Shown: piece after piece, positions 4,899-15,804 of the stretch
How positions within the stretch are numbered: position 1 is the stretch's first letter
Layout of the letters: the number at the start of each line of letters is the position of its first letter
Assembly (NCBI GenBank): GCA_022750055.1
Contig: JAKIWL010000002.1
Coordinates: 209,042 to 273,041 of the forward strand
DNA length: 64,000 bases
Source of the DNA: Thermoplasmata archaeon
GTDB lineage: Archaea > Thermoplasmatota > Thermoplasmata > Lutacidiplasmatales > UBA184
Direction of reading: 5' to 3'
Translations under genes and position numbers: made by a program
Notes under the pieces: model-generated
The model's database searches: none
What the model saw: only the letters and a program-made list of their open reading frames with translations
What the model was told of the DNA's origin: nothing

Positions 4899-7800
4899 AT
4901 GGAATCGAGATCGGACGGCTGGTGGAGCCGGCACGGTTGGACAGTCCTCGTCCTCGCGGCCGCCTTTTCCATCACGTTCCTCATCCGGACCCTTTGGAAC
5001 CTGCCGCTCTTCGAGCAGTACGGGACCACGTACTACTTCGCGGGCGGGTCCGACTCCTTCTACCACTGGCGCGTCAGCGACTACATCCTCCTGAATCATG
5101 CGAACCTGGTCCACGACCCGCTGCTGAAGTACCCGGCCGGGGCGATCAACCCGCGCGAGCCGCTGTTCGACTGGATGAACGCCGTCTTCGGCCTGCTGTT
5201 CGCTCCGCTGTTCGGCGGGAGCGCCATGTCGGCGGGGATGTTCTCCCTGGAGGTAGCGCCCCCGCTTTGGGCGGCGCTCAGCGTCGTGCCGATCTACCTC
5301 GTAGGCAAGGAGGTGAGCTCCCGACGGATGGGCCTGATCGCCGCGCTGATCTGGCCTTTCCTCGTGGCGAACATCGATTCCTCGACCTTCGGGTATGCGA
5401 ACTACCTGTCGTTCTACACGTTCTTCATCCTGGTCATGATCTACTCGTACCTCCGGACGATCCGGGCGGCCGGGACCCGGCGTTGGGTGACGAGCTACCG
5501 CCACCCCCGCGACATCCTCCGCGGCCTCCGTGACTTCCTGTACTACGAGAAGGCAGCGGTGAAGTGGGCCGTGTTCACCGGCGTGTCGTTCTCCGCGGTC
5601 GTCCTCACCTGGCAGGGATACACCTTCCTCGTCGCCCTCGTCATCGTGTTCGTCATCGTGCAGATGGTCGTCGAGCGGGTGCGTCGGATCGATTCCCTCG
5701 GGCTCTACCTCACGACCTGGATCGTCGGTCTGGTCGGCTTTCCGATCTCGTTTCCGTACTACTTCGCCCAGGGCGACTACCACATCTGGTTCCTCGAACC
5801 GGTCCTGATCTACTTTGGCGCGCTGCTGATCCTGCTTCCCTTCCTCCTGCTCCGCGACCAACCCTGGGTGATCAGCATCCCGGTTCTCGTCCTGACCTCC
5901 GCGGGTGCGCTGGGGGCGCTCGTCGTCGCCGCGCCGGCCCAGTTCGCCGACATCCTTTCAGGTCAGGGCTACTTCGTAAAGACGCTCATCTACTCGACCG
6001 TCGCCGAGGCCCAGGCCCCTTCGATCGACTCGCTGATCGTCGGGTACGGCGTCGTCACCTTCTTCTTCGCCTTCGCCGGGGTCGGGTTTGTCGTCTTCCA
6101 GATGGTCCGGGGCCGCTTCGAGCGCCGGCACCTCTTGTTCCTCCTACTCGGCCTGATCTCGATCTACCTGCCGATCTCGGCGGCCAAATTCTTCTACATC
6201 GGTTCCGCCGCCTTCAGCCTGCTGCCGGCCGAGGCATTGACTCGGGTCCTCGACATCGGAGGGTACCCGACCCTGCGCCGCAACGTCGTCTCGCTCTCCG
6301 ACCGCAGGAGTCAGCTCTCGGCCCTCCGTCGGTCGTTCAAGGCACGCCACGTCCTGGTCTTCCTTCTCGTCCTCGCCATCATCGTGCCCAACGTGTGGTA
6401 CGGCATCGACGCCGGCATCCCGTACAACTCGAAGTCTGGCTACGATAGCCAGGTCTACAACGCCCTCCCGCCGGCACTGCGCGTGTCGCCGACCAACGCT
6501 TCGAGCTATTATTTCGGGGCCGCCGGCAGCTCCCTCGATACCCCGAGCCAGTACGACGAGGCCGGGTACGACTGGTTGGCGACGCAGGACACGAACCTTC
6601 CTGAGCCTCAGCGCCCGGCGCTCGTCAGTTGGTGGGATTATGGGTTCCAGACGATCGCCGAGGGTCACCATCCCTCCGTCGCCGACAACTTCCAAAACGG
6701 CATCGACCCCTCAGGGAACTTCCTGCTCTCCCAGAACGAGTCCGAGGCGATCGGGGTACTCGCCACGACGCTGCTTTCTGCCGAGGCCCAGGCGACGGGT
6801 CAGCCCTATCTCCCGGCGGGCCTGAACGCGGTCCTCGCGGGCGACGGGGTGAACCTCGCAGCCCTCCATCCGCTGCTCGCCAACGCCTCCGCCGACCTGC
6901 CTCTCGTCGAGGCCCATCCGGAACGCTACGTCGCCGTCAACCCCGCGACGATCACGGCGGATAACGCGATGTACGATGCGGTCAGCTACTTCCTGGCCTC
7001 GACCCTGCCCCTGAGCCGGGTCGCCCAGGTCTACAACGACATCCAGGCCTACACGGGGTGGTCGATCCGATACCCGATGGTCGACTCTCGATTGATCCCG
7101 TTCTCCGGGCAGAACACCGGCATCTTCTACGCGCCGGCCGACCTGACCGGGCGCGTGATCGGCCCCGGCGGCGAGCCGACCTCGTACTACACCGTCTCCG
7201 TCGTCGGCTCGGACGGGAACTCCTACCCGGCGGGAACGCTTCCCGCCGGCGTGACCGCGGTCACGTACAACATCAACAATACGCCGGCGTTCTACAACAC
7301 GATGATCTACCACACCTACTTCGGCTATTCTGCCCAAGAGGTCGGACAGGCCGCGGGCGTCCCGTGGCTCTCCCAATCTCAGCAGGAACAGACAGACCCG
7401 CTCCAACCCGGCTGGATGCTCCAACACTTCCAGGTGGTCTATCGGACCGCCTACGCCTGCCCCCAGCCGAACCAGACGGCCGGTTCGAGCTGCTTCCGCG
7501 CGACGAACGTCCCGACCGCCCAGCACATCCAGTCCAAGGAGAAGGGATCGTCGGACCTCTCCCTCGGCTCCTACTTCCAGGGGGGCGAGGCGATCCTACA
7601 GTACTATCCGGGCGTCCCGACCGTCGGCAATGTGGTCCTCCCGAACGGCCGGGCAGTGCCTGATGCCCGGGTCACCGCCTACGACGGGTGGGGGGTACCG
7701 CACATGACGACCTTGACGGGGTCGGACGGCGCGTATTCGCTGATCCTGCCCCCCGGCCGCGATACGATCAACGTGTCGACCGGCTCGCTCAACCTCATCA

Positions 7801-10800
7801 CCCAGGCCGGTGCCACCCACCTCGCTACGTTCAACGTCACGGTGCCCAGCGCCTACGGTCTTTCCGATAGCGCGCCGACGATGGTCCAGCCGCTCGTGAT
7901 CCAGCCCGCGACCGTGGAGGGCTTCCTGAGCTGGTCGGCATCGAACAGTTCCTCGGGCAGTCCGTCCCCTGTCGTGGGGGCCACGGTGGTCCTCTGGGGC
8001 CACAACCTGTCGCGCCTCGCCGGGATCACGGATGCCAGCGGCTCGTTCGGGCTGCGCAACGTGCCCCCCGGCATCTACAATGTCTCGATCGTCTACCGCA
8101 GTTCGAACTTCACCGAGTCAACGGCGACCGCCCTCCCCGGGAAGAACGTCAACGAGACCCTCAGCCTCTCGGAGGGGGAGGTGCGGGGCACCGTGAAGGA
8201 CTCGGCCGGCCGGGTGGCGACCGGCGTGTTGGTCACGGTGAGCGGCGCGCTCGGGGTCATCGCGACCGGCTCGACGAACTCCTCCGGACGCTACCGTATC
8301 GCTGACCTGGGTCCGGGCAACTATACGGTCGTCGCCTCGACGCAGTCCCCCCGGCAGGGCTCGCTCAGCCAGGCCCTGAACCTCGCCACCCCCGGCGCGA
8401 ACAAGACGCTCAACTTTACCATCGTGCCTGTGGGTCCGGTATCGGTCGAGGTCCTGAGGGACGGCACCCCGGTGTCCGGGACTCCGGTGCGGTTCACGCA
8501 GTGGCTACCGCCGGTCGTCTCGGTGGGACCGACGAACAACTCGACCGCCGCCCACGTCACCCAACAGAAGGCGAACTCTACCGTGGTGCTCACGAACGCC
8601 GACGGCGTGGCCGCGGAGCTGCTCCCGGCAGGGAACTACTCGGTCTACGCACTCGGGTACAACGGCTCGGGCTACTTTGCGGGATACTGGTCGGGCCCCA
8701 TCGGTCCCGGCCTGCCGGACCCGCCCCCGATCTCGGTCTATCCGGCCTCGGAACTCTTCGGATCCGTGACCGGGACGGTGAACGCCTCGGTCAGCGTGCC
8801 GATCGAGGTCGCCGCGTACAATCACCTCGGTAAGGTGGTCTGGGCGTTCGCCAATTCGAGCGGCCGCTACGCCCTCTGGCTGCCGAACGGCGAGTACTCC
8901 GTCCTTGCGTTCAGCCCCAACCCGAACCAGGCGGTCCTTGCGAAGGCCGTCGTATCGGGGACCACCCGCCTGGACCTCGTCACGACCCCGACCAGTCTCG
9001 CGACGACGGTCGTGACCGACAACGCGACGGGCCGGCCGATCCTCGGAGCTTCGGTGAACTTTACCCTCGAATCGAACGGCGCCACCGTCGCCGCTACCTC
9101 GGACTCGCACGGCAATGCCTCGGCGGTCCTGCCGAGCGTCCCGCCGCCCTCGAGCCGCGGAGCTCCCCCTGTGTACTGCATCAACGTCACCGCGACGGGC
9201 TACCTCGGAAGTTCGCGCTGCGGAGTGGCGGCCGGAACGCTGCCGACCGGATCGGCCGTCCGTCTCGTGGGCGCGCCCGTCCAGGTGACGATCCTCTTGA
9301 TGGGTCTCCCGGGCGGGGCGTCGGTCCACGTCAACCTCACCGCGACCTCGCCGGGGGCTCGCACCCTCCGCACGAACGGGAGCTCTCCCATCGCGGTCTC
9401 GATCAGCCCAGGGTCGTACTCGGTCACGGCGTGGGCTCCCGGCTCGCCGACCGGGTTCTACTTCCCGGTCGCGGCGACCTCCTTCACCGTGGCCCCCGGT
9501 GCCATCCCGTCCTCCGTGACGGTTCGATTGACCGATCAGGTCGAAAGCCACGGGACCCTGACGGTGCCGGCGGGCGCCTCGGCTCCGAGAGCCCAGGTCG
9601 AGTTCGTTTCCCCCGTGATGAACGAGACCGTCAGCTACGGTGCGCTCGTGAACGGATTCTACCTCGCGCCGGGCAGCTATGAGTTCATCGCGACCGTACC
9701 CGGCCCGCAGGCGAACCAGGGCTGGATCGCCTTTGGAACGGTCAGCTTGAGCCTGACCGGAACCCTCTCCACGGCCTTCCACCTGACCGGGGCCTCGGTC
9801 TCCTTCGAAGGGTCGGTCAACCTTCCCACGATCACCCCACTGACAGCGTCGGCCGTGGTGGCGTTCGTGAGTCCGTCGGGATTCGATTTCCCAGCGTTCG
9901 TCTCGTCGGGGTCGTACAACGCGACCCTGCCGGCGAACGTGACCTATACGCCGTTCTTGAACGTCACGGCCCCGGTCGTGCGAAACAACGTCTCGGTCGT
10001 CGAGGCCCTGAGCGTCCCGAGGGGGCAGGTGTGCGCCGTCCGGCCCGTTGGGACCTCCTGTGACATCACGCTCGTCGGACGAGAGGTCAACCTGACCCTC
10101 GACGGCCTCCTATCCGTGGCGAACTCACCGGCCCTCGTGCCGGGGTCGGTGCTGCTCGAGGGGCCAGCCCCGACGATGCTCCTGACTCGGCTCGTCACGA
10201 GTGCGAACGGCTCCTTTTCCGTCTCGCTCTCGCCGGGCGTCTACACGGTCTACGCGAACTCCACCGGCGGAACGTACGCCCAGCTATCGAGCGTCTCGCT
10301 CGTCTTCGGGAACTCCGAACCGCTGTCCTTGACCCTGAGGCCGGCCTGGACCGCCGCGTTGACCGTCCTGCCTCCCGCGGGTCAGACCGTCGGCCCGGTG
10401 CGATTGTCGATCCAGACGGCGGCCGGCGCCGACCTCGTCCTGCCGGACGTGAGCCTCGGGGCGCCCCTGTCCGTGCCGCTCCCGGTCGGGACCTACCTAG
10501 CGACCGCGAGCGCGAGTTCGAGCCCCTACGGGGTCCCGACCAACGCCACCGCGAGCATCACCTTCAATCTCTTCTCCGGGAATGTGGGCCTCTCCCTCGC
10601 CCTCACCGAGCAGATCGTTCGGGCGGTCGTCCTCTCCATCACCCTTCCGACGAACCTGACCCAATCGATTCTCCTGCCGCCCTCGGGAGGGACCGTCTCC
10701 CTCGGCTTCTCCGTCCACAACACGGGGAACATTCCGGTGAGCGTAACCGTGATCGGGAACCCCTCGACGTGGAATTTTACGATCACCCCGTCGAACTTCA

Positions 10801-11492
10801 CCCTCGGAACCGCCCCCTCGAACTCGAGTGCCAGCGGGGCGTTCTCGGTTCGCGTTCCGGCGGGAACGCCGGTGGTGCACGCGCCGATCCTGCTCATCGC
10901 TGACCTCGCCGGGACCACCCAAAAGGTCGGCCGGTCGGTCCTCCCAGCTCCGGTCTCGATCCAGCCGAGGGCGGGGATCGCCCTCGGTCGGTCGGCGAGC
11001 ATCGACCTCGCGGTCACCCCGACGAGAGTGACGATCCCGCTCTTCGCTCACAACACCGGTAACTTCGTCGAGTCGGTCCGCGTGTCGGTCGTCGACGGGG
11101 CTGCCCTCGCCCAGCAGGGATGGACGAGCCTCGTCCAATCGGCCAGCGCGGCCATCACCGGGCCGCTGTCGATCGCGGTCGCCGGGAATACTTCGGTCTC
11201 GATCGTACTGAACGCTTCCCTCGGCCACGCGATCCCTCCCGGTTCGGTCACGGTGGAGGCGAACGTCCTCAACCAGACCGGGGGGGCCGCCTCGTCGTTG
11301 CTGACCGTCACGATCCCGGTCGTCTCGATCGCGGTGAACGGTTCCTCGATCATCGTGACCGGTCCGAACCTCGGGTCGCCGTCGGCGACACCGGACTGGC
11401 TCGTCCCGCTCCTCTCGTTCGTGCCGGCGATGGCGTTCGTCGTCTTGCTCCTAGCCCAGCGATGGTACTCGACGCGGCGGTGGGTGCGGTGA
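4899..11492 (+). CDS. aglB: Giant STT3/AglB oligosaccharyltransferase with long C-terminal repeat region
   Basis: GGSDSFYHWRVSDY motif near the N-terminus, multiple TM helices, catalytic SWWDYGFQTIAEGHH (WWDYG at nt 6630-6644); from ~nt 7618 many beta-rich CarboxypepD_reg-like repeats (e.g. VVGATVVLWGHNLSRLAGITDASGSFGLRNVPPGIYNVSI) and a C-terminal TM (PDWLVPLLSFVPAMAFVVLLLAQRW). Confidence 0.93.
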   Translation: MESRSDGWWSRHGWTVLVLAAAFSITFLIRTLWNLPLFEQYGTTYYFAGGSDSFYHWRVSDYILLNHANLVHDPLLKYPAGAINPREPLFDWMNAVFGLLFAPLFGGSAMSAGMFSLEVAPPLWAALSVVPIYLVGKEVSSRRMGLIAALIWPFLVANIDSSTFGYANYLSFYTFFILVMIYSYLRTIRAAGTRRWVTSYRHPRDILRGLRDFLYYEKAAVKWAVFTGVSFSAVVLTWQGYTFLVALVIVFVIVQMVVERVRRIDSLGLYLTTWIVGLVGFPISFPYYFAQGDYHIWFLEPVLIYFGALLILLPFLLLRDQPWVISIPVLVLTSAGALGALVVAAPAQFADILSGQGYFVKTLIYSTVAEAQAPSIDSLIVGYGVVTFFFAFAGVGFVVFQMVRGRFERRHLLFLLLGLISIYLPISAAKFFYIGSAAFSLLPAEALTRVLDIGGYPTLRRNVVSLSDRRSQLSALRRSFKARHVLVFLLVLAIIVPNVWYGIDAGIPYNSKSGYDSQVYNALPPALRVSPTNASSYYFGAAGSSLDTPSQYDEAGYDWLATQDTNLPEPQRPALVSWWDYGFQTIAEGHHPSVADNFQNGIDPSGNFLLSQNESEAIGVLATTLLSAEAQATGQPYLPAGLNAVLAGDGVNLAALHPLLANASADLPLVEAHPERYVAVNPATITADNAMYDAVSYFLASTLPLSRVAQVYNDIQAYTGWSIRYPMVDSRLIPFSGQNTGIFYAPADLTGRVIGPGGEPTSYYTVSVVGSDGNSYPAGTLPAGVTAVTYNINNTPAFYNTMIYHTYFGYSAQEVGQAAGVPWLSQSQQEQTDPLQPGWMLQHFQVVYRTAYACPQPNQTAGSSCFRATNVPTAQHIQSKEKGSSDLSLGSYFQGGEAILQYYPGVPTVGNVVLPNGRAVPDARVTAYDGWGVPHMTTLTGSDGAYSLILPPGRDTINVSTGSLNLITQAGATHLATFNVTVPSAYGLSDSAPTMVQPLVIQPATVEGFLSWSASNSSSGSPSPVVGATVVLWGHNLSRLAGITDASGSFGLRNVPPGIYNVSIVYRSSNFTESTATALPGKNVNETLSLSEGEVRGTVKDSAGRVATGVLVTVSGALGVIATGSTNSSGRYRIADLGPGNYTVVASTQSPRQGSLSQALNLATPGANKTLNFTIVPVGPVSVEVLRDGTPVSGTPVRFTQWLPPVVSVGPTNNSTAAHVTQQKANSTVVLTNADGVAAELLPAGNYSVYALGYNGSGYFAGYWSGPIGPGLPDPPPISVYPASELFGSVTGTVNASVSVPIEVAAYNHLGKVVWAFANSSGRYALWLPNGEYSVLAFSPNPNQAVLAKAVVSGTTRLDLVTTPTSLATTVVTDNATGRPILGASVNFTLESNGATVAATSDSHGNASAVLPSVPPPSSRGAPPVYCINVTATGYLGSSRCGVAAGTLPTGSAVRLVGAPVQVTILLMGLPGGASVHVNLTATSPGARTLRTNGSSPIAVSISPGSYSVTAWAPGSPTGFYFPVAATSFTVAPGAIPSSVTVRLTDQVESHGTLTVPAGASAPRAQVEFVSPVMNETVSYGALVNGFYLAPGSYEFIATVPGPQANQGWIAFGTVSLSLTGTLSTAFHLTGASVSFEGSVNLPTITPLTASAVVAFVSPSGFDFPAFVSSGSYNATLPANVTYTPFLNVTAPVVRNNVSVVEALSVPRGQVCAVRPVGTSCDITLVGREVNLTLDGLLSVANSPALVPGSVLLEGPAPTMLLTRLVTSANGSFSVSLSPGVYTVYANSTGGTYAQLSSVSLVFGNSEPLSLTLRPAWTAALTVLPPAGQTVGPVRLSIQTAAGADLVLPDVSLGAPLSVPLPVGTYLATASASSSPYGVPTNATASITFNLFSGNVGLSLALTEQIVRAVVLSITLPTNLTQSILLPPSGGTVSLGFSVHNTGNIPVSVTVIGNPSTWNFTITPSNFTLGTAPSNSSASGAFSVRVPAGTPVVHAPILLIADLAGTTQKVGRSVLPAPVSIQPRAGIALGRSASIDLAVTPTRVTIPLFAHNTGNFVESVRVSVVDGAALAQQGWTSLVQSASAAITGPLSIAVAGNTSVSIVLNASLGHAIPPGSVTVEANVLNQTGGAASSLLTVTIPVVSIAVNGSSIIVTGPNLGSPSATPDWLVPLLSFVPAMAFVVLLLAQRWYSTRRWVR

Positions 11493-14733: not shown

Positions 14734-14823
14734 ACGCTACGGGCCCTGGCGAGCCTCCTGGGAAGCGGTTCGCTCGACGGTTCGTCCGAAAGCTTTTCAT
14801 TCCCTCCGCGGTCCCGAGGGTGC

Positions 14824-14931
14824 GGCCGGGATGGGGTAGTTTGGCCTATCCTGGGGGACTGTGGATCCCTCGACCCGGGTTCAAAAGGAGACGGGGCCAA
14901 CCCCCGTCCCCAGAGAGTCTCGGTCCCGGCC
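14824..14931 (+). tRNA. tRNA-His(GTG) with a non-canonical intron-like insertion in the T-loop (about 14886-14917)
   Basis: G-1 (14824), acceptor GCCGGGA (14825-14831) pairs with TCCCGGC (14924-14930), C73 at 14931; D-arm GGGTAGTTTGGCCTATCC; anticodon arm GGGGA-CTGTGGA-TCCCT (anticodon GTG); T-stem CCGGG (14875-14879) pairs with CTCGG (14919-14923) only after removing ~32 nt, restoring loop TTCAAAT. No encoded CCA. Confidence 0.88.
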
Positions 14932-15804
14932 CTACCGGCGGCGAGCGCGAGGCCGAGCAGGCGCGGCCCTCGCCGCTGGATCCGCCAGGACCTCGGGCAG
15001 CGCCGTGAGAGTGTAGTCCGCCCAGGCCGCTCCCCAACGTCGAAGGTCGTCCGGCGTGAGGGTCCAGCCGAGCAGGCTGGACGCCCGACCGATCGCAACC
15101 ACCCCTTCCGAGCCGTGGGCGACCTCCATGTCGAACCGTGAATCTCCGACGAGGAAGATCGGCGCCCCGGGGTATCGCCGGTGGAACTCCAAAAGATGCT
15201 CCCGCTTGGTCCCTTGCCCGGAACCGAGGACCTCCTCGAACCAGTATCGCAGCCCCTCCCGCTCGAGCATGAGGTCGGCCATCTCCCGTTCGGCGCCGGT
15301 CGAGACGGCCATCGTCCATCGTTCGGCCGAGAGTCGTTTCAGGAGTTTGGGCATCTCCGGGAAGATCCCGGCCACGGCGTAGGCTTCGGCGACCTTGCGT
15401 TGGTGAAATATCTTGGCGGTCTGGTTCCGAAGGTCGACCGGCGCGGCCGGGTAGAGCTGGGAGAGCTGCGCTTCGAAGGGCATCCCGGTGGTCGCCAGGT
15501 AGTGGAGCCTCCCCTCGGCCGCGGGGGTCCCGAACGCGCGGAAGAGAACGTCGGCCGCGACGTCGGCGATCAATCCGATGTCATCGAGGATCGTGCCATC
15601 GAGGTCGAACAGGACGAGCCCGCGCTCGATCGAACGGGGAGCGACCTCGGGTTCGTCCTGGATCACCGTGTGCGCCATCTCGGCGTACTGGCTGGTCGAG
15701 AGGCTCGGAGGGGTGGGGCCGGCCATGGGAAGATCCACCGGCGTGCGAGGGTCCTGCCCCTCGGGCGTCCCCGTCGACGGGTGGTTCGTCTTTGCCCTCG
15801 GCAC
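14932..15804 (-). CDS. HAD-superfamily phosphatase
   Basis: LVLFDLDGTILDD, TMAVSTGAEREM, PIFLVGDSRFDMEVA; N-terminal ~50 aa may be overextended. Confidence 0.85.
   Translation of the reverse strand: MPRAKTNHPSTGTPEGQDPRTPVDLPMAGPTPPSLSTSQYAEMAHTVIQDEPEVAPRSIERGLVLFDLDGTILDDIGLIADVAADVLFRAFGTPAAEGRLHYLATTGMPFEAQLSQLYPAAPVDLRNQTAKIFHQRKVAEAYAVAGIFPEMPKLLKRLSAERWTMAVSTGAEREMADLMLEREGLRYWFEEVLGSGQGTKREHLLEFHRRYPGAPIFLVGDSRFDMEVAHGSEGVVAIGRASSLLGWTLTPDDLRRWGAAWADYTLTALPEVLADPAARAAPARPRARRR

Follow-up and report, generated by a model that had tools for sequence, protein, structure and literature searches.

Position 59/60, in the T-loop, is already among the known intron sites of archaeal tRNA genes (PMC4090602), and intron-rich tRNA sets have been described in Thermoproteales and in Asgard archaea (PMC8450103, PMC11291895). 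Alpha'2 splicing endonucleases are rated as narrow in specificity in reviews (PMC6379350), and a review of 2014 knew of no alpha2 archaeon with non-canonical introns other than Korarchaeum (PMC4033280). The possession of many non-canonical tRNA introns has so far been tied to endonucleases with special loops, a link that the family described here makes directly testable. In the open-access literature, our searches turned up no description of T-loop introns for Lutacidiplasmatales or for any other Thermoplasmatota. Here, we report a tRNA-His(GTG) gene with a 32-nt T-loop intron from a genome of Ca. Lutacidiplasmatales (Thermoplasmata), a lineage of uncultured acid-soil archaea. The kind of feature was already known; the novelty lies in the lineage, in how strongly its introns are concentrated at a single site, and in an endonuclease that is not of the expected type.

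The interrupted tRNA-His gene

The window (the whole stretch of DNA analysed, 64 kb) belongs to a MAG-like assembly of 1.52 Mb, ~94% complete, in 5 contigs. Features at the locus, with the evidence for each, were as follows.

14789..14798 (+), promoter-like AAAGCTTTTC, BRE/TATA-like, ~30 bases upstream of tRNA-His (AAA..TTTT block conserved in 30 orthologues)
14824..14931 (+), tRNA-His(GTG) gene including encoded G-1 and C73 (sequence, covariance model, orthologues)
14824..14885 (+), exon 1, G-1 to A59, with the anticodon GTG at 14861-14863 (columns near-invariant, n = 44)
14880..14883 (+), 5' strand of the central helix of the bulge-helix-bulge (BHB), formed by T-loop U54 U55 C56 A57, with its partner AGAG at 14912-14915
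14884..14886 (+), 5' splice-site bulge AA|A (AA|N in 44/44 relatives)
14886..14917 (+), intron, 32 nt, at position 59/60 in the T-loop (same site in 30/30 genus loci and 64/64 signature genes)
14887..14911 (+), intron hairpin, 14887-14896 with 14902-14911, loop 14897-14901 (fold, covariation)
14916..14918 (+), 3' splice-site bulge AG|T (AN|T in 44/44 relatives)
14918..14931 (+), exon 2, U60 to C73 (fold and exon conservation)
14932..15804 (-), HAD-family hydrolase gene, convergent, its end abutting the tRNA-His gene (Pfam HAD_2; neighbour in 30/30 loci)

The acceptor stem has 7 bp (GCCGGGA, 14825-14831, with TCCCGGC, 14924-14930), G-1 is at 14824 and C73 at 14931, and the T-stem pairs CCGGG (14875-14879) with CTCGG (14919-14923), including one G-U. 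Taking out 14886-14917 gave the T-loop TTCAAAT, a closed T-stem and a complete tRNA-His, with all the marks of a functional one (G-1, C73, GTG anticodon, full cloverleaf) present in sequence and fold. The original prediction had placed a tRNA-His(GTG) with a T-loop insert at exactly these coordinates, which sequence, fold and covariance model confirmed; its expectation that removing the insert closes the T-arm and restores TTCAAAT was borne out, and the stop codon of the HAD gene begins at 14932, where it had the tRNA gene meet that stop. Elsewhere in the window (4899-11492) lies a 2197-aa open reading frame with a WWDYG motif that by eye resembles an AglB/STT3 oligosaccharyltransferase, extended by a very long stretch of repeats.

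A covariance model was built from seven tRNAs of this genome that also have an interrupted T-loop, with tRNA-His left out. This leave-one-out model matched 14825-14931 at 63.4 bits (E = 9e-13, the E-values from the covariance search being rough) and gave no other match anywhere in the window (64 kb) up to E = 10. The Rfam tRNA model gave no match at the tRNA-His locus or across the window, because it cannot bridge the intron, and ARAGORN called tRNA-His but misplaced its 3' end to 14915. The suggested covariance-model check of the T-arm was thus split: the own-genome model accepted it, whereas the standard Rfam model missed the gene. Given the blindness of Rfam and the wrong end from ARAGORN, annotations of these soil archaea may lack some of their tRNA genes. 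The other check proposed at the outset, for an intact second tRNA-His, found none among tRNA matches or by full-length search of the genome (~94% complete, 5 contigs).

T-loop introns in the genome and its relatives

Introns at 59/60 were found in at least 13 tRNAs of the window's genome, namely, His, Asn(GTT), Gly(TCC), Arg(TCT), Arg(TCG), Ser(GCT), Ser(GGA), Ser(CGA), Gln(CTG), Asp(GTC), Ala(GGC), Glu(CTC) and Leu(TAG), and the tRNA-His intron is therefore not the isolated oddity that it had seemed. The twelve besides His were mostly missed or shortened by the Rfam tRNA model. D-loop introns occurred in the same genome in initiator Met, Arg(GCG), Pro(TGG) and Leu(TAG), and introns near 37/38 in Tyr, Met and Leu(TAA); tRNA-Leu(TAG) (C4:11881-12025, minus strand) apparently has two introns, in the D-arm and the T-loop. 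No genes for tRNA-Trp, Lys(TTT), Pro(CGG) or Ala(TGC) turned up in the genome (~94% complete); they may lie in its missing part or be concealed by further introns.

We surveyed 395 Thermoplasmatota genomes with a T-loop-intron model, scoring nine candidates per genome, so that counts are lower bounds. All 28 genomes of the family gave at least 5 strong matches (5-9), and outside it 45 genomes gave 1-4 and 322 none, a contrast somewhat exaggerated by training of the model on the window's genome. When individual loci were read, many other Thermoplasmata proved to have genuine T-loop introns, in small numbers per genome. In taking most euryarchaeal introns to lie at 37/38, the original prediction thus overlooks a widespread minority site in Thermoplasmatota. 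Short T-loop introns (20-24 nt) were seen in tRNA-Lys and tRNA-Arg(TCT) of other Thermoplasmata, and a 31-nt, unrelated-looking intron at 59/60 in their tRNA-His.

How the introns arose is a separate matter from whether they function. All 13 share one site and a common 3' end that fits the T-loop, as would follow if introns had recently spread among the tRNA genes of each genome, a route suggested for Thermoproteales. Introns of different isotypes were no more alike within a genome than between genomes (p = 0.48), whereas those of the same isotype in different species were more alike than others (p = 2e-6). By the same comparison (p = 0.48), we found no transposed introns of the Thermoproteales type (near-alike across isotypes in one genome). 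The same isotypes, moreover, are interrupted in the window's genome and in two relatives of the same genus (G021 and G028). Recent spread is thus unlikely, and the pattern shows no sign of it; any spreading may instead have come before the family radiated. Old gains, probably near the base of the family, followed by vertical descent, would fit these comparisons. The T-loop appears to be a favoured intron site because, whatever the tRNA, one half of the splice motif is already provided by the near-universal UUCRAA.

Splice motif, conservation and covariation

The predicted splice motif is a nearly canonical BHB with one non-standard central pair. Its outer helix is the T-stem, its inner helix is the intron hairpin, and two 3-nt bulges with a 4-bp helix between them allow a cut after the second base of each bulge. 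Under this rule, the bulge positions would set both cuts at 59/60 without ambiguity. In the central helix, UUCA (54-57) faces AGAG with 3/4 standard pairs, the A57.A mismatch adjoining the 5' bulge, and a U.G pair at the end of the helix in the window's copy. At the mismatch site, 29/44 relatives have a standard pair (UUCA/UGAG), 13/44 have A.G and 2/44, including the window's copy, have A.A; across the genome, the fourth pair is non-standard in 8 of the 13 T-loop introns. The imperfection that the original prediction saw in the BHB comes down to this one mismatch (A57.A), and its margin of about 1 nt on the splice sites falls away under the BHB rule. The hairpin that it had seen in the insert also stood, and is longer than first described, with 10 positions and 9 pairs between its strands (GGAGACGGGG and CCCCGTCCCC).

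An intron of 29-32 nt lies exactly at 59/60 in 30/30 tRNA-His loci of the genus, and all 64 tRNA-His genes with the exon signature of the lineage carry one (a structure-based count over named genomes). Of the tRNA-His genes from other archaea (n = 53), 48 were without an intron and 5, from other Thermoplasmata, had a different one at 59/60. In 44 gap-free genes, the exons were near-invariant and the intron variable. The 14 pairs of the BHB and hairpin were standard in 89.9% of cells in these 44 genes, with 48 double-changed cells versus 20.3 in shuffles, and a covariation score of 0.209 versus 0.103 +/- 0.010 when shuffled (0/500 shuffles as high). Because the 44 genes are phylogenetically related and shuffles ignore kinship, only the control with partners slid, at 0.037-0.089, corrects for it. 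In 133 distinct T-loop-intron genes, G57 stood opposite an intron C in 23/23 cases and A57 opposite C in 0/110, and exon base 57 and the intron thus co-vary as expected of a splice motif. The AAA..TTTT block ~30 bases upstream is kept in 30 orthologues, and a convergent HAD homologue lies beside tRNA-His in 30/30 loci.

Two readings without splicing were weighed against these data. That the 32-nt insert is kept in the mature tRNA as an extension of the T-loop would fit its hairpin, which is stable in the predicted fold. A retained T-loop insert would, on the other hand, destroy the D-loop/T-loop elbow contact. The bulges keep fixed places (AA|N and AN|T in 44/44), the 3' end of the insert covaries with exon base 57, one insert design recurs at one site in 13 tRNAs, and genes for EndA and RtcB are present, all of which make retention very improbable. 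That the locus is a pseudogene broken by insertion, with the true tRNA-His gene elsewhere, would fit the miss by the standard Rfam model and the mismatch in the central helix, and is the least probable reading of all given near-invariant exons, an intron in all same-lineage orthologues, a conserved promoter, structure-preserving changes and the lack of another tRNA-His in the ~94% complete genome.

By contrast, a functional tRNA-His whose T-loop holds a non-canonical intron is supported by the intron in all orthologues examined in the lineage, near-invariant exons, strong covariation within the intron, the conserved promoter and synteny, the lack of a second copy, and the presence of EndA and RtcB. 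Against it stands the central helix of the window's copy, with 3/4 standard pairs, as the nearest enzymes that have been studied, those of Archaeoglobus fulgidus and Thermoplasma acidophilum, count as narrow in specificity. We consider it almost certain that this is a working gene, its T-loop intron presumably cut by an alpha'2 endonuclease and its exons joined by RtcB; transcription, splicing at 59/60 and the enzymes responsible are what we infer from sequence. The pre-tRNA would fold with the T-stem as outer helix, U54-A57 and AGAG as central helix and the intron hairpin as inner helix, the endonuclease would cut at A59|A and G|U60, and RtcB would then ligate the exons, giving the normal TTCAAAT T-loop.

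Splicing enzymes and comparison with known systems

The splicing endonuclease is encoded by one gene, in which two N-terminal and two catalytic domains lie in a single frame (two PF02778 and two PF01974 stretches). Its second repeat aligned end to end with the Methanocaldococcus jannaschii enzyme and was collinear with those of relatives that have few T-loop introns. By gene arrangement, the enzyme is of the alpha'2 type, and the second repeat is the predicted catalytic one. No gene for a second subunit was found in the genome. Relative to M. jannaschii and Archaeoglobus fulgidus, we saw no long insertion that would correspond to a CSL or ASL (an extra loop with a lysine, close to the active site), a result that draws on loop-free comparison enzymes, the ARMAN-2 and Aeropyrum pernix chains lying outside the residue-by-residue alignment. 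The broad-specificity architecture raised in the original prediction, as one that could handle relaxed motifs, is thus absent: the enzyme is an alpha'2 type with no CSL or ASL. An RtcB ligase gene is present in the genome.

These features are compatible with the T-loop being the main intron site of the family, served by an ordinary alpha'2 enzyme, with one design fitting any tRNA and the "narrow" class accepting A.G or A.A as the fourth pair, a proposal that we hold to be evenly balanced between right and wrong. If true, it would run against the rule, as proposed, that an abundance of non-canonical introns is accompanied by an enzyme whose loop broadens its specificity.

By sequence, the best relatives with solved structures include the alpha'2 endonucleases of A. 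fulgidus and T. acidophilum, which, like the enzyme here, have two fused repeats of which the second is catalytic. Both are rated narrow (PMC6379350), whereas the enzyme here must serve at least 13 T-loop introns. Korarchaeum cryptofilum likewise combines non-canonical introns with an alpha2-type endonuclease, but its enzyme is said to carry a specific loop (PMC4033280), and none was seen here by alignment. Thermoproteales resemble this genome in having BHB introns at non-canonical sites in many tRNAs per genome. They differ in origin, with introns transposed between isotypes there and apparently inherited vertically here, and in the enzyme, which in crenarchaea is of the (alpha beta)2 type and bears a crenarchaea-specific loop, whereas that found here is alpha'2 and loop-free. 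Atabeyarchaeia and Freyarchaeia are likewise an uncultured lineage in which non-canonical introns were recently found, there in most tRNAs (PMC11291895): introns occur in 92-95% of their tRNA genes, over half of which have several (PMC11291895), whereas those of the window's genome occur in a minority of the tRNA genes found, mostly one each and mostly at 59/60.
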